DNA of 64,000 nt from Sulfurospirillum sp. Its GTDB lineage: Bacteria > Campylobacterota > Campylobacteria > Campylobacterales > Sulfurospirillaceae. The DNA lies in NCBI GenBank assembly GCA_014859685.1, contig JACUTU010000005.1, positions 1 to 64,000 of the forward strand, given 5' to 3'. Shown here piece after piece: positions 37,115 to 43,099 of the stretch; position 1 is the stretch's first letter; each line of letters begins with the position of its first letter. The position numbers and the translations under genes were made by a program. The notes under the pieces are model-generated. The model searched no databases, was not told the DNA's origin, and saw nothing but the letters and a program-made list of their open reading frames with translations.

Positions 37115-38689
37115 CTATACAATCTCTAAAATCTCTTTTTTTAGCGACTCTTTGTCTATTTTTCCTTGTGATGGGCTACTCATAGGAAGATTTTCTTTAT
37201 AAATAATCACAGCTGGAATCATATGGTTTGGCAAGTGTTTTTTGAGCTCAAAAAGAATCTCATTTTTTGGTATCTCTCTTGTTGCTGTATAAACCATCAC
37301 AATCTCCTCTTCTATCTTTTCATTTTCAATAGAAAAAACAGCACATCCCTTGATTTGCTGGAGATTGTTTCGCACGACGCTTTCAATCTCATAAGGACTG
37401 ATGCGAAAACCGCAGGATTTTATCATATCATCTTTTCGTGATACAAAATAGATATAACCCTCTTCATCCTTATAAACATAATCACCACTACAAACAACGA
37501 TCTCATCGATAAGTTCTCCCTCAAGATCAATCACTTTTTCAAGCACTTTGATACTTTTATAAAACTTTTGCGTATCATCTTTGGCATTCCAATAGCCTTT
37601 ATAGATGTATCCGCCACGGTGAATAAGCTCTCCTATCTCTCTTGGCTTGCATTCAAGTCCTTCTTCATTGATGATATATATCTCTACATCTGGGATAGCT
37701 TTTCCTATGGAATCTGGACGAATTTTAAGCTGATTTGGCTCAAGGTAAGTGGAGCGAAATGCTTCTGTAAGTCCGTGCATTGAGTAAAATTTAGCATTTG
37801 AAAAGTAGGTTTGGACATCTTGGATCATTTTGTTTGTAATCTTACCGCCCGAACTCGTAACAATCCTTACATGTGAGAGTAACTTTGGATTTGGCAATCT
37901 TGAGAGTGTTTCATCAAACATTTGTGTTATATGGATCGGCATAAGTGGAATAATGGTAACTTTGTGATTTAAGATATGATTGAAAAAATCATTTGGCAAA
38001 ACAATACTATGGATTGCAAGTGTAGCTCTTTTGTAGATACTGCAACAAATTTGATTGATCCCATAATCAAGAATAAAAGGAAGCACACCACTGAGTACAT
38101 CATCGCTTTTTATATCAAGATATTGTGAAACAACCCTCGCACTGTCGATGAGATTTCTATGCGTTATAACGATTCCTTTTGGAAAACCGCTCAAACCAAA
38201 ACTATAAGTGATGGCTGCATTTGTGTGTCCTGAGATGTTGCAAGTGTATTTTTTGGAGCAACACTTAAAAATCTCTTCAAAAGAAACAATGTCTCTTTTC
38301 GTTGCTTCATAAGTAATGATAACACCGCTGTAATCAATTGCATCGATATTTTTAAGTTTGCTGTGATCTGTTATCAAACACTCTATACCGCAATCTTTGA
38401 TGATATGTTCCACCTGCTCGCTTTTGAGAAATCTCGAAATTGGTACAAAGATATAATCGCTTGAAAGCACAGAAAGAATTGCTATAACTTGAGCTATATT
38501 TTTATGCGAATAGATCCCGATGCGAGAACCTTTTTTGAGATCTAATTCGCTTAAATAACTCGCCACTTGATTGACTTTTTCAAAAAGCTCTTCATAGCTC
38601 ATCAATCCATGACTATCAATCAATGCTGTTTTTTTTGGTGCTTTTTCATACGCTTTTTCCAAAATTGAGCGCATACAATTTATAGACAT
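37115..38689 (-). CDS. AMP-forming acyl/aminoacyl ligase of the glutamate mutase operon
   Basis: A 524-residue member of the ANL adenylating family. Recognised elements are a P-loop region FGLSGFPKGIVITHRN (about 170-185), the aromatic/GxTE segment HGLTEA, the SGDYVYKDEEGYIYF hinge with SRKDDMIK, and a C-terminal QGKIDK carrying the catalytic Lys. The P-loop is unusual: F-G-L-S-G replaces the Ser/Thr-rich consensus. The start at 38689 is chosen for AAAGGAG six bases upstream; an ATG further upstream overlaps the preceding gene. It is 10 bp after the MutL-type gene. By position it should activate the mutase product, 3-methylaspartate, but no carrier protein is adjacent and the substrate is unproven. 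Confidence 0.85.
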   Translation of the reverse strand: MSINCMRSILEKAYEKAPKKTALIDSHGLMSYEELFEKVNQVASYLSELDLKKGSRIGIYSHKNIAQVIAILSVLSSDYIFVPISRFLKSEQVEHIIKDCGIECLITDHSKLKNIDAIDYSGVIITYEATKRDIVSFEEIFKCCSKKYTCNISGHTNAAITYSFGLSGFPKGIVITHRNLIDSARVVSQYLDIKSDDVLSGVLPFILDYGINQICCSIYKRATLAIHSIVLPNDFFNHILNHKVTIIPLMPIHITQMFDETLSRLPNPKLLSHVRIVTSSGGKITNKMIQDVQTYFSNAKFYSMHGLTEAFRSTYLEPNQLKIRPDSIGKAIPDVEIYIINEEGLECKPREIGELIHRGGYIYKGYWNAKDDTQKFYKSIKVLEKVIDLEGELIDEIVVCSGDYVYKDEEGYIYFVSRKDDMIKSCGFRISPYEIESVVRNNLQQIKGCAVFSIENEKIEEEIVMVYTATREIPKNEILFELKKHLPNHMIPAVIIYKENLPMSSPSQGKIDKESLKKEILEIV

Positions 38690-38699
38690 ATCATCTCCT

Positions 38700-39875
38700 T
38701 TATTGGTGCATTCCAAGTGTCCAAATATCATAATTGTGATCTAGAACAATCGTTGGAATGGTATTTGTATTTAGCACTTTTTTATAGAAAAAATGCACGA
38801 TACTTAAAACCTCATCTTGTGAGAGTACTTTTGTAATGCCGCCTGTAAACACAAGGGCATTTAAACGCTCTAAATTAAGAGTTACATACGCTGGTTTATA
38901 GCTTGAAACTTTATATAAAACTAAAAAAATGGATAGGAGCATAAGAATTTTTGTAGCTTTTTCACTTTGCTCTTCGAGAATATTTTCCGTAACATTGAGG
39001 TAATTGAGCATTTCATACACAAATTCATTGCTTTTGGCTGCAAAAACGAGACTCTCACGCGATTTATACACGCCAAGCTTTTTAAATACAAGCCTATCAA
39101 ATCCGTTCTCGCTCACTATATTGTCTCGCACGAGGTCACGACTATAATGTATATCTGTCGTAGCTCCGCCGATATCAACCACAATAAATGGATCAACCAC
39201 TGCAAATTTCGTACCGATAAACGGCAAAGACCGATTAACGATATAAGGCGTTGAAAAAATTTGATTGGCCGTGATTGCATAGAGTTGCTTGATATCTTCT
39301 TTGCCTACGATATCTTGTTGATAAAGATTTGTAAGGTACTCTTTAAGTGCTTCTTCTCGCACTTTGAGTTTATTGTCGATGATATTTTCAAGCACCACAA
39401 GTGCTTCTACATGTGAGCGTAAAAAAGGAACATCTTGAGTATTGCCTACATAAACTATATTGCTGTATCGTAGTTTTGCAAGATAGCTTATAAGTTTTGT
39501 ATCATAAATCCCGCCAACACTATCGATGCCACCTACAACAATTACAACATCAAGCAATTGCGTCGGTGCTACACTTGTTTGCAATTCATGCACTAAAACT
39601 GTGTCGATGATATTGATTCCAGAATTAAAAGCGATATTTTTGGCGTATTTGAGACTAAAAGAGTTTGTAAGTCCAATGATAAGCGTACTTAAACCGCCAT
39701 TTGCTGATGAACAGATATAAATATCTTCTTTTTTATATGCAGCTATTTTGTTTGCAAATTTGTGGCTTAAATCATCAAAAATAGTCATACTAAAATCTCG
39801 AAAAGCTTGTGCTACGCCCTCACTTGAACTTGTTTTAAAATAAGTACTCCCAACATCTATGAGTAACTTACTCAT
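38700..39875 (-). CDS. MutL-family protein of glutamate mutase loci (ASKHA ATPase fold)
   Basis: 391 residues opening with SKLLIDVGSTYFKTS, a phosphate-1-type loop, and with VDIGGATTDIHYS in the middle, both typical of the actin/hexokinase fold. This is the MutL protein that accompanies glutamate mutase in clostridia, unrelated to the mismatch-repair MutL. It is thought to help assemble or reactivate the B12 enzyme. It overlaps the E-subunit gene by 8 bp. Confidence 0.88.
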   Translation of the reverse strand: MSKLLIDVGSTYFKTSSSEGVAQAFRDFSMTIFDDLSHKFANKIAAYKKEDIYICSSANGGLSTLIIGLTNSFSLKYAKNIAFNSGINIIDTVLVHELQTSVAPTQLLDVVIVVGGIDSVGGIYDTKLISYLAKLRYSNIVYVGNTQDVPFLRSHVEALVVLENIIDNKLKVREEALKEYLTNLYQQDIVGKEDIKQLYAITANQIFSTPYIVNRSLPFIGTKFAVVDPFIVVDIGGATTDIHYSRDLVRDNIVSENGFDRLVFKKLGVYKSRESLVFAAKSNEFVYEMLNYLNVTENILEEQSEKATKILMLLSIFLVLYKVSSYKPAYVTLNLERLNALVFTGGITKVLSQDEVLSIVHFFYKKVLNTNTIPTIVLDHNYDIWTLGMHQ

Positions 39876-41235
39876 GCATAACTCCTATATCACAAATGAT
39901 TTTATTGATAACTGCTGTTTTATCATCGCTCAAGCTTACATGTGAGCGTTCAAATGCAAAACATTTTTCACTAATCGGTAGTTTGCCTTTTTCGATGATG
40001 CGGATATTACTTTGGGCATCTCGTATGGTAATCACGGCATTGTGATTGATGATATGAGGTGAAAAAGGTACATCAATGATACCGTTTTTGATAGAATTGA
40101 ATGCTTTTCTCCAGAGCGTATCGGCACTATCATTCAATACCGCTTCCATGATAGAATGTATTTCGGCTTCAAGATTTTCCTCTTCCGCTGCATCACTGAT
40201 ATTTGGCAAACCATTTAAAACTTGTAGGGTGTATTTTGTGTTAGCAACTGATTGGGCGTTGCATTGCATCGTTGGAATACCAAAAGCCTCATCTCTTGTT
40301 TTTACGATAATTTTATCGGCTCTCACAAGTGCTGCTATGACGGTGCTTGTGTTGATAAGTGAGTCTGAAAGTTCTTTGTTTCTAGGAAAAGCGCCCATCC
40401 ACTGGTGGTAGACTATATTTATTGTAGCATCGCTACATCCTATCTTTTGAGCATAATAATTGGCTGTTTTACGCAAAACATTTGCACTCACTATATCTTG
40501 CATCACCGAACCGTGCTGGGCGAAACTCACCGAAAATGATTTCACTCCCTCTTCAAGTGAAAGCAACATCTCTAAAAGCTGGATAACGATTGTGATACAA
40601 GGCGGTACAAGCGTTGCGGTGAGTGGACCAAAAGACTCACGATTTATCGGTTCATTGAGCGTTGAATACTCTGCACAAATTTTTTCTACATATTTCCAAT
40701 ATAAAAACGCTTTATCAAGTGGAAAATTTTTCGAGTAAGGCAAGAGATAAGTGATAGGTCCGCCCTCTATCTCAAAAATACCGCTAGCAAGTGCTGTTTC
40801 TATGAGCAATCTCGCATCGGGCGTTCCATGACGAAGACTCACAGGTGTGTTAAAGTGCGTGATCATTTTTCTTGTGGTACGGTATCCGTGCGTGACCAAA
40901 GGGTAACCGTTGAGCATATCGACTTCATTTTCCTCAGATAACATCAACATTTTTTTGGCACTTGCATAATCATTGAGTCTTGTGTGTGAATCCACAGTCA
41001 AAGGCATAACATCGATATTTGCTTTTTGAAATTCATGATAGAGTGCGAACATCTTGTTGTAAGTAGGAAAACCGCCCCTTGGTTGTACGAGTGTTTTGTT
41101 ACTATGCTTAAAAGTATGGGATATAAAAAGCTCTTTTGGAGCATTGGTTATAAACTCTCGTATTTCATCAAAATCAAATCTATCTGCATATTCGTTGTGA
41201 GTGATGATATCTCGTTCACGCTTCAATAAAGTCAT
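39868..41235 (-). CDS. glmE: Glutamate mutase epsilon subunit (methylaspartate mutase E)
   Basis: The catalytic subunit of the adenosylcobalamin-dependent rearrangement of L-glutamate to (2S,3S)-3-methylaspartate. The 455 residues show the TIM-barrel signatures VQPRGGFPTYNK, LRHGTPDARLLIE (substrate Arg region), EGGPITYLLPYSKNFPL and HQWMGAFPR. It is slightly shorter than the clostridial protein (about 480). The ATG overlaps the S-subunit stop by 4 bp and its end overlaps the MutL gene. No methylaspartate ammonia-lyase or mesaconase is adjacent, so the fermentative pathway is not indicated here. Confidence 0.93.
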   Translation of the reverse strand: MTLLKRERDIITHNEYADRFDFDEIREFITNAPKELFISHTFKHSNKTLVQPRGGFPTYNKMFALYHEFQKANIDVMPLTVDSHTRLNDYASAKKMLMLSEENEVDMLNGYPLVTHGYRTTRKMITHFNTPVSLRHGTPDARLLIETALASGIFEIEGGPITYLLPYSKNFPLDKAFLYWKYVEKICAEYSTLNEPINRESFGPLTATLVPPCITIVIQLLEMLLSLEEGVKSFSVSFAQHGSVMQDIVSANVLRKTANYYAQKIGCSDATINIVYHQWMGAFPRNKELSDSLINTSTVIAALVRADKIIVKTRDEAFGIPTMQCNAQSVANTKYTLQVLNGLPNISDAAEEENLEAEIHSIMEAVLNDSADTLWRKAFNSIKNGIIDVPFSPHIINHNAVITIRDAQSNIRIIEKGKLPISEKCFAFERSHVSLSDDKTAVINKIICDIGVMHE

Positions 41236-41657
41236 TTTGTAATCCTATCTTGCATAAAAGCTTCAAGTGTATCGAGTCCTGTGTTGAGGTCTATTTGATG
41301 AAAAACAAGATCAAAGCCGTATGCTTTATACTTTGGAACTATATCTTCGCATTTTGCTTCACCGACTGCTAAATTGCCACCGATAACAAAAACAACATCT
41401 TTTAGTTGATATTCGGATCGTAAAAATTGCAAATCCCTACACCAGCCCTCAGCTTCACCATTGAGCGAAGAGATAAGCAAGATATCAGCATCAGTTTCTA
41501 TAACAGCATCTATAAACTCTTCTAAGTAGGTATTGACCCCTAAATTGAATACTTCATAACCTCTAGCTTGCAAAGAGATATCGATAAGTCTATTTGCCAC
41601 CACATGTATGTCGTTTCCAACAACTCCCGTTACAACTTTTTTAATCCTATCTGTCAT
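41232..41657 (-). CDS. glmS: Glutamate mutase sigma subunit (B12-binding)
   Basis: The cobalamin-binding subunit, 141 residues. The base-off/His-on motif reads D16-I-H18-V-V-A21, so the last position of D-x-H-x-x-G is Ala; His18, the expected cobalt ligand, is kept. The partner motifs S-S-L (63-65) and G-G (93-94) are intact. The start at 41657 is chosen for AGGA upstream and for length; an ATG at 41696 lacks a binding site. It is the first gene of the four-gene operon. (The symbol here means glutamate mutase, not glucosamine synthase.). Confidence 0.92.
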   Translation of the reverse strand: MTDRIKKVVTGVVGNDIHVVANRLIDISLQARGYEVFNLGVNTYLEEFIDAVIETDADILLISSLNGEAEGWCRDLQFLRSEYQLKDVVFVIGGNLAVGEAKCEDIVPKYKAYGFDLVFHQIDLNTGLDTLEAFMQDRITK

Positions 41658-41720
41658 CTTAAAATTTCCTATCGCTTCACATATAAAAGTGTCCATTTTA
41701 TCTTATTTATTTTTAAGATT

Positions 41721-41729
41721 TGATATAAT
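41721..41729 (+). promoter_or_regulatory. Extended -10 promoter for the RraA-family gene
   Basis: TGATATAAT is an exact extended -10 (TG-N-TATAAT) 29 bp before the ATG of the RraA-family gene. No convincing -35 is seen, which extended -10 promoters do not need. The promoter of the divergent glutamate mutase operon should lie in the same ~100-bp gap, but I could not pick one. Confidence 0.5.
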
Positions 41730-41758
41730 TTTTCATATTTTAAAGCTATGGAGGACAA

Positions 41759-42238
41759 ATGACTTTTCAAACTTCTGATCTGTGTGACAAATACGACAAT
41801 ACAGTGCAAGTGTTAACGCCACTCTTACACTCTTTTGGTGGGACAAATAGATGCTTTGGACAAATAGTTACATGTAAGCTACCTGATCACAACTATACTC
41901 TAAAACAACTTTTGCAAACATCAGGTGATGGAAAAGTGTGTGTGGTTGATGTGAATGCTAAATTTACTGCTGTTGTTGGCGATACACTCATGGCATTTGC
42001 TGCACAAAACAATTGGGCTGGAATCATCATAAATGGATATGTGCGAGACACGATAAATACAAAAAAAATCAATGTAGCACTCTTTGCACTTGGAACTTGT
42101 CCTAAAAAAACACAATTAGAAAAAAAAGGCGTGCTTGGTGAAACGCTTCATTTTGCGGGCGTAGATTTTTGCGATGGGGATTTTTTGTATGCTGATGAGG
42201 ATGGTATCATCACAAGCAAAGAAATGCTTTACATGTAA
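41759..42238 (+). CDS. rraA: RraA-family protein (RNase E inhibitor/HMG aldolase-like)
   Basis: 159 residues of the RraA fold: the FGGTNRCFGQ opening, GDTLMAFAAQNNWAGIIINGYVRD and the closing FLYADEDGIITS. Members either inhibit RNase E or act as metal-dependent class II aldolases on 4-hydroxy-4-methyl-2-oxoglutarate; the R and D of NGYVRDT are shared by both. GGAGG lies six bases before ATG. The last codons and stop are made by a TTACATGTAA motif. It is divergent from the glutamate mutase operon; a metabolic link is possible but unsupported. Confidence 0.85.
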   Translation: MTFQTSDLCDKYDNTVQVLTPLLHSFGGTNRCFGQIVTCKLPDHNYTLKQLLQTSGDGKVCVVDVNAKFTAVVGDTLMAFAAQNNWAGIIINGYVRDTINTKKINVALFALGTCPKKTQLEKKGVLGETLHFAGVDFCDGDFLYADEDGIITSKEMLYM

Positions 42239-42246
42239 AACATTTG

Positions 42247-42765
42247 ATGAAGCAAATATTTTTAGGGTTTATATTACTTTTTATTTTTTACGGATGTACA
42301 GCACATGGTCCACAAACTGCAAAAATTGAACAGTTACAAATGACACTTGTGAATCTTGATGTAAAAGTAGATTTTAGTGAGGCCGCAACGCTCGCTACAA
42401 ACTTGCATATGCTTGGCGCATCATTAGCGCTTGAATATGCCTTGGTAAAACCTCCATTGTTTCATAATTTTTTAGTTAATGCTGGTGTCAAAAAGCGTGG
42501 CTTGTGTTGGCATTTTGCAACTGACATGCTCGAAAGTGTGCTTAAAGAGAAATATGAAAGTTTTGATTTTTATCTTGTTGGGACAAATATCGGGGATTAT
42601 TGGCAAGAGCATACCGCACTTCTTGTCACAGCTCAAGGACAGGAGGTTAGCAAAGGTGTTATAATCGATGCATGGAGAAATTCAGGCGAACTTTTTTTCT
42701 CCAAAATTGATGAAGACCCTGTGTATAAGTGGTCTCAAAGAGGAGCTAAAAGAAATGAAAGATGA
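42247..42765 (+). CDS. Lipoprotein with a possible Cys-His-Asp protease-like triad
   Basis: A 172-residue protein with a signal peptide and lipobox (FYGC). The mature part has a Cys in KRGLCWHFA, a His in WQEHTALLVTA and an Asp in VIIDAWRNSGELFF, the order and spacing seen in papain/transglutaminase-fold proteins. I do not recognise a named family. It starts 8 bp after the RraA gene and overlaps the YgbA gene by 11 bp, so the three are probably co-transcribed. Catalytic activity is inference only. Confidence 0.65.
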   Translation: MKQIFLGFILLFIFYGCTAHGPQTAKIEQLQMTLVNLDVKVDFSEAATLATNLHMLGASLALEYALVKPPLFHNFLVNAGVKKRGLCWHFATDMLESVLKEKYESFDFYLVGTNIGDYWQEHTALLVTAQGQEVSKGVIIDAWRNSGELFFSKIDEDPVYKWSQRGAKRNER

Positions 42766-43099
42766 AAAATTTATCAAAGATACGCAAACAGTTTTGCAAT
42801 TTATCCAAACCTTTTGTGACGATAAACATGCTTCACAACATCCAAAAGAATCCCTAAACATTTCATATCGAGAAAAAAATCTCTTACATGTAAGCTTTCA
42901 TCTATGCTCTACATGTAAGCAAACTTTTTTATATTCCCTAGAGCGATTACAATCGTGTCCGCACGAAGAGAAACCACGATGCCGCAAATGTTCAAATCCA
43001 TGCTATGAACGATCCCGTTGGAAAGAATTGGCTCAAATTATGCGTTATAGCGGTATGAAATTAGGACTTGTAAAGCTCAAAAAAATTTTTATGCGTTAA
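42755..43099 (+). CDS. ygbA: YgbA-family (nitrous-oxide-stimulated promoter) protein
   Basis: 114 residues with the family's Cys pattern: FCDDKH in the N-terminal part, LCSTCKQTFLYSLERLQSCP in the centre, then CRKCSNPCY and a C-terminal MRYSG. In Escherichia coli, YgbA is induced by nitric oxide and linked to iron or nitrosative stress; the biochemical role is not settled. The ATG at 42755 is preferred (AGAGGAG upstream). Overlaps the lipoprotein gene; faces the EamA gene tail to tail. Confidence 0.85.
   Translation: MKDEKFIKDTQTVLQFIQTFCDDKHASQHPKESLNISYREKNLLHVSFHLCSTCKQTFLYSLERLQSCPHEEKPRCRKCSNPCYERSRWKELAQIMRYSGMKLGLVKLKKIFMR

Follow-up and report, generated by a model that had tools for sequence, protein, structure and literature searches.

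Which pathway does a glutamate mutase serve in a bacterium where the methylaspartate fermentation of glutamate seems to be missing? This question is raised by a group of genes in Sulfurospirillum sp. (Campylobacterota; assembly GCA_014859685.1, a genome of 2.1 Mb and 100% complete), located in positions 1 to 64,000 of contig JACUTU010000005.1, the whole 64,000-nucleotide stretch being referred to here as the window. An earlier note on this DNA described four tightly packed genes for both glutamate mutase subunits (glmS and glmE), a MutL-type helper (glmL) and an AMP-forming ligase, and proposed that they make and activate 3-methylaspartate, as in vicenistatin biosynthesis. These genes, their coordinates, the overlaps of 4 bp (glmE/glmS) and 8 bp (glmL/glmE) and the 10-bp gap between glmL and the ligase gene, counted with the conserved starts, were all confirmed on the minus strand, but an rraA-family gene divergent from glmS had been overlooked as a member of the set. 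We conclude with high confidence that the unit is a five-gene module (glmS, glmE, glmL, the ligase-like gene and rraA), and tentatively suggest that it may constitute a B12-dependent accessory shunt from glutamate to 2-oxobutyrate, in which the ligase-like protein would bind its ligand and not activate it.

A conserved-peptide scan of the GTDB species genomes returned 221 relatives of GlmE, of which the best 80, with at least 71% identity, were fetched together with their loci. The order glmS-glmE-glmL-ligase is not due to chance, because it recurs in most of these 80 loci and in two phyla: in Campylobacterota it is found in Sulfurospirillum, Arcobacter and its relatives, Sulfurovum, Sulfurimonas, Sulfuricurvum and Hydrogenimonas, and in Gammaproteobacteria, to which the earlier note had not extended its proposal, in Colwellia, Thalassotalea, Vibrio, Granulosicoccus, HTCC2143 and others; many of its carriers are marine. 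In most of the genomes examined with a divided cassette, glmL and the ligase gene persist at another place, and those lacking the ligase gene are two small drafts. The gene rraA adjoins the cassette or lies close to it in 58 of the 80 loci, in both phyla; further loci can be added, one of them with a frameshifted copy. Among the 60 nearest genomes, an RraA above the cut-off was detected in 26 of 26 with glmE versus 1 of 34 without, and this lone protein is a different RraA with 35% identity. The cassette has a scattered distribution in a sample of the phylum, with 30 of 298 genomes and 13 of 58 genera carrying it; all 30 of these genomes also have an RraA of full or almost full length, versus 3 of the 268 without glmE. 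The Fisher p values for this co-occurrence, about 4e-16 (nearest genomes) and 4e-38 (phylum sample), overstate independence because of the relatedness of the genomes and the overlap between the samples. Even so, RraA accompanies glmE through both its gains and its losses, and within one family glmE and RraA are jointly missing at several places (genomes G009, G010, G012, G031 and G035). The earlier note had also proposed looking for a constant partner in the form of a carrier protein, a pyridoxal 5'-phosphate (PLP) decarboxylase or a transferase; none of these (VinL or VinO kind included) is conserved with the cassette in the neighborhoods of about 80 loci, and the recurring partner is RraA, which suggests a step on a 2-oxo acid and not an activation route.

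Two observations on individual rraA genes may be added. Three genomes (G251, G299 and G333, family f9) harbor full-length RraA homologues without glmE, three copies being present in G251, and these are possibly paralogues with another role. In Colwellia maritima rraA is frameshifted while the rest of the module is intact (locus L112, 8910-9387), a state in which sequencing error and decay are not distinguished.

Homologues of RraA are known either as regulators of RNase E or as class II pyruvate aldolases with an additional decarboxylase activity on oxaloacetate (PMC5065237). A role as RNase E regulator was rejected, because RNase E/G is missing in 31 of 31 relatives, the positive control, E. 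coli, being detected. Moreover, the motif [D/E]75-X20-R96-D97 is present in 59 of the 59 linked RraA proteins, whereas the solved RraA of E. coli displays VRQ at the position of the R-D motif. R96 and D97 match Arg-123 and the metal-binding Asp-124 of the HMG/CHA aldolase, in which the decarboxylation of oxaloacetate proceeds through the same pyruvate enolate (PMC5065237). Because of this motif and the lack of RNase E/G, the protein is predicted to be a metal-dependent aldolase/2-oxo acid decarboxylase. It shares with the RraA/HMG-CHA aldolase family the fold family and the metal/Arg motif; in contrast to that family, it is linked here to a glutamate mutase, in hosts without RNase E, and no aromatic-degradation context was seen.

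Regarding the mutase itself, GlmE retains 11 of the 11 residues compared with the Clostridium cochlearium enzyme (R66, R100, N123, R149, E171, Y177, Y181, E214, K322, K326 and E330), and because of this conservation GlmES is expected to make 3-methylaspartate, in agreement with the identity and product first assigned to it. GlmE passed the Pfam model, though it scored 369.7 against a cut-off of 390.1 for the NCBIfam equivalog TIGR01503; GlmS passed NF002612 and reached 101.2 against a cut-off of 135.8 for TIGR01501. The B12 motif of GlmS reads D-x-H-x-x-A across the family (the window and all fetched GlmS), with Ala replacing the usual Gly of DxHxxG, and GlmL lies far below the NCBIfam GlmL cut-off (81.7 versus 475). 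The system resembles the clostridial B12-dependent glutamate mutase (GlmES/MutSE, PDB 1ccw) in both subunits, in the active-site residues and in the presence of a MutL-type accessory protein, and differs from it in the DxHxxA motif of GlmS, in the divergent GlmL, in the lack of an ammonia-lyase and in being joined to RraA and to an adenylation-like protein.

In the ligase-like protein, the adenylation motifs and the pocket differ in their conservation. The function of the A10 lysine is adenylation, that of the A8 lysine thiolation (PMC11253843), and an A domain without the A10 lysine failed to accept its proposed substrate (PMC7966384). Here the A10 position is K in 36 of 65 distinct orthologues and otherwise Q, R, E, L, S, V or A; the tree of the family implies no fewer than 18 changes there, and the position varies more than 86% of the sites do, while Asp222, Tyr223, Glu323, Arg326, Asp417, Asp434, Lys438 (the A8 lysine) and Arg443 displayed no change in the same 65 orthologues. 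The nearest curated family is TIGR03098, the exosortase-A-associated acyl-CoA/amino-acid ligase (450.6 bits, below the cut-off of 592.35), with which the stretches TEAFRSTYLDP, DSIGKAIP and MIKTSG(F/Y)R(V/I)SP are shared. Aligned with two plasmid-borne relatives of that family, the A3 loop of the glm-linked proteins reads YSFG(L/S/V/I/M)(S/T)GxP(K/R/N)G; the plasmid-borne proteins, in contrast, carry canonical YTSGSTGKPKG and NGK motifs and adjoin a PLP decarboxylase and a phosphopantetheine carrier, whose place is taken here by glutamate mutase. The pocket of VinN, which is one for a beta-amino acid, comprises D230, the bulky F231 and a shortened loop with R331 (PMC11253843), and similar features are found in our protein, with Asp222 for the amine, the bulky Tyr223 and a short T-E-A-F-R loop with Arg326, all invariant, in a comparison that sets motif positions against the residues reported in that review and is not a direct alignment to VinN. 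A Foldseek search with the ligase model (mean pLDDT 87) matched proteins throughout the ANL superfamily (A domains, MatB and 4CL) to a similar degree, leaving the substrate class undiscriminated. Because the pocket is frozen while A10 varies and A3 is degenerate, we regard the protein as probably a pseudo-adenylase, in which ligand binding would be conserved and activation would not, although the single copy of the window, having K524, could still be active. Thus, the comparison with VinN made in the earlier note finds support in VinN-like pocket features at the motif positions, but the claim that the ligase activates 3-methylaspartate is left unsupported by a variable A10 lysine, a degenerate A3 and the lack of a recurring carrier or decarboxylase.

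A glutamate mutase route to isoleucine is represented in MetaCyc as isoleucine biosynthesis III, and to our knowledge no dedicated genes have been assigned to its later steps. This route to 2-oxobutyrate figures among the known isoleucine routes (PMC7476758), where it is credited to Abramsky et al. (1962). The steps predicted for the module are the same, from glutamate to 3-methylaspartate, 3-methyloxaloacetate and 2-oxobutyrate; unlike in the known route, RraA stands here as a candidate decarboxylase and threonine deaminase co-exists. GlmES would convert L-glutamate into L-threo-3-methylaspartate. Since the chemistry of RraA requires a 2-oxo acid, a transamination must intervene, and an aspartate-type aminotransferase, in Campylobacterota a general cellular enzyme, would yield 3-methyloxaloacetate. 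The RraA-family enzyme, in which the motif is present, would then form 2-oxobutyrate by the enolate chemistry used for oxaloacetate, and this product may be directed to isoleucine or to propionyl units. GlmL would be the accessory ATPase of the mutase, and the ligase-like protein, which keeps the amino-acid pocket and the hinge, may be a subunit with a regulatory or reactivating role that binds 3-methylaspartate or glutamate. The net effect would be a cobalamin-dependent bypass from glutamate/2-oxoglutarate to an isoleucine precursor, alongside threonine deaminase. An AspC/TyrB-type aminotransferase adjoins rraA in 11 gammaproteobacterial loci; some of these genomes possess a close paralogue elsewhere, and in HTCC2143 the linked gene is the only close copy. 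Our confidence in the pathway is moderate at most.

Several points nevertheless weigh against the shunt. Because it is the only close copy, the linked AspC of HTCC2143 may be a housekeeping enzyme, and no aminotransferase is linked to the cassette in the loci of Campylobacterota. All 60 relatives, whether they carry the module or not, possess threonine deaminase (ilvA, TIGR01127). Isoleucine supply in these genomes is thus not dependent on the shunt; a replacement of that enzyme by the module was rejected, and the route, if real, would be accessory. Citramalate synthase scored above the cut-off in none of the same 60 relatives, regardless of glmE. Furthermore, some RraA homologues are not enzymes, the ligase-like protein, though retained, has no necessary role in the pathway, and the Gly-to-Ala replacement in GlmS together with a GlmE score just below the NCBIfam cut-off allow some room for another substrate.

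The parallel with vicenistatin biosynthesis (VinH/VinI/VinN/VinL/VinO) consists of a glutamate mutase and an adenylation-fold protein with a VinN-resembling pocket, but the present module has no linked carrier, PLP decarboxylase or polyketide genes, its adenylation motifs are degenerate and RraA is present. It may still be argued that the ligase activates 3-methylaspartate in the manner of VinN and hands it on to an acceptor (CoA, an amine or a carrier encoded elsewhere) to give a small conjugate, RraA handling a by-product. Such a role would suit the match of Asp222, Tyr223 and the T-E-A-F-R loop to VinN (PMC11253843), the unchanged A8 lysine, the A10 lysine still present in the window copy, and nearest relatives that are amino-acid-type ligases with a PLP decarboxylase and a phosphopantetheine carrier as neighbors. 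We consider it rather unlikely, since the A10 lysine, whose absence accompanies an inactive A domain (PMC7966384), varies freely in a family with a degenerate A3 and no partner of the carrier, decarboxylase or transferase type recurs beside the cassette. The ligase-like protein and GlmL might instead form a machine for reactivation or maturation of the mutase, the pathway stopping at 3-methylaspartate, which would be used directly. GlmL has the ASKHA ATPase fold typical of the reactivases of B12 enzymes (DdrA/EutA), and both proteins are kept with GlmES even when their genes are unlinked; however, other glutamate mutase operons, such as that of Gemmobacter, do without such a protein, and the strict link with RraA is left unexplained, which makes this an unlikely account.

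RraA could also be an aldolase for another substrate, for example a 4-hydroxy-4-methyl-2-oxo acid, in a module that makes or degrades a larger compound. Its motif would suit class II aldolases in general (PMC5065237), but the surroundings of the cassette in about 80 loci show no other conserved enzyme that would handle such a compound, and we hold this to be improbable. Catabolic methylaspartate fermentation of glutamate, with the ammonia-lyase and mesaconase unlinked, would rely on a mutase identical in kind. Methylaspartate ammonia-lyase (PF07476), however, has no match anywhere in this genome, and the relatives have no full-length copy, the PF07476 matches in them being only partial and enolase-superfamily-like; in addition, the genuine catabolic cluster of Gemmobacter has a different look. 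Fermentation is thereby essentially refuted, as the earlier note had already maintained for the clostridial pathway.

The features of the locus are collected in Table 1. Two starts differ from those of the mechanical open reading frames: glmS begins at the ATG shared by its orthologues (41657), the mechanical frame at an upstream in-frame ATG (41696), and the ligase-like protein begins with a conserved MSINC at 38689, the mechanical frame at 38731. No cobalamin riboswitch or other known RNA was found upstream in the window or in 7 related loci. A gene of the YgbA_NO family (nitrous-oxide-stimulated promoter family) lies near rraA, at 42668-43099 of the window, and is also near the cassette in two related genomes.

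Table 1. Genes and sequence elements of the glutamate mutase module, by position in the window
Feature	Position	Strand	Evidence or remark
Adenylation-domain (ANL) protein, "ligase", probable pseudo-adenylase	37115-38689	-	PF00501, 208.7 bits, 1.5e-61
A10 Gly-Lys codons (residues 523-524 counted from 38731)	37160-37165	-	K in window copy
Degenerate A3 phosphate-binding loop YSFGLSGFPKG	38174-38206	-	Sister family canonical YTSGSTGKPKG
glmL, divergent MutL/GlmL-type ASKHA ATPase-like accessory protein	38700-39875	-	PF13941, 100.5 bits, 1.2e-28
glmE, catalytic subunit of glutamate mutase	39868-41235	-	PF06368, 392 bits, 3e-117
glmS, B12-binding subunit of glutamate mutase	41232-41657	-	NF002612, 160.5 bits (cut-off 110); PDB 1be1 match
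rraA-glmS intergenic region, likely bidirectional promoter	41658-41758	strandless	
rraA-family gene, divergent from glmS	41759-42238	+	NF006875, 153.4 bits (cut-off 136)

In a tree of GlmE the window copy groups with Sulfurospirillum, the gammaproteobacterial sequences form a supported group within the part of the tree occupied by Arcobacter, and nested inside that group are Sulfurimonas and two sequences from Arcobacter; this nesting indicates that the module has moved between phyla. The cassette is also interrupted by other genes in some genomes. At the glmL-ligase junction differing anti-phage pairs are found, which gives the cassette the look of an insertion hotspot: Septu PtuA/PtuB in one Sulfurovaceae genome (L148, 7876-9750) and, in its sister, a PD-T4-4-like pair (L147, 8895-10566) whose second gene was matched only weakly. 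AbiLi/AbiLii (RloAB-like) lies immediately after glmE in one other genome (L034, 53-2020), an MNT/HEPN pair between glmS and glmE in another (L157, 3873-4599), and in a third (L035, 2408-5179) the region upstream of the cassette weakly matches an nSTAND NTPase. In one Sulfurospirillum (G026; L024, 10864-19001, and L156, 1-7300) about 14 kb separate glmS from rraA, which is retained beyond the insert; an IS110-like transposase comes first in it, and many unmatched small genes lie within.

Within the literature covered, searches for glutamate mutase with RraA, AMP-dependent synthetase, Sulfurospirillum or Arcobacter returned no account of this module, and the new facts are its fifth gene, rraA, and, likely, the loss of adenylation. 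A more speculative proposal, which we put forward as doubtful, is that the former adenylation domain would be a subunit of the mutase responsive to 3-methylaspartate or glutamate, and that the module, with RraA as decarboxylase, would be the gene-unassigned glutamate mutase route to 2-oxobutyrate and isoleucine, transferred as one unit between Campylobacterota and Gammaproteobacteria. In bacteria without RNase E, the module gives an RraA-family protein a well-defined metabolic context, and it supplies candidate genes for the later steps of an isoleucine route known since the 1960s. It also offers a standalone adenylation-fold protein that is retained with a pathway while its catalytic lysine drifts and its ligand pocket is frozen, a testable case of a putatively repurposed ANL enzyme, and cautions that family membership alone is insufficient to call such genes "ligases". 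The set would be more plausibly interpreted as a cryptic metabolic pathway, which may lead to an isoleucine precursor, than as an antibiotic-style activation.

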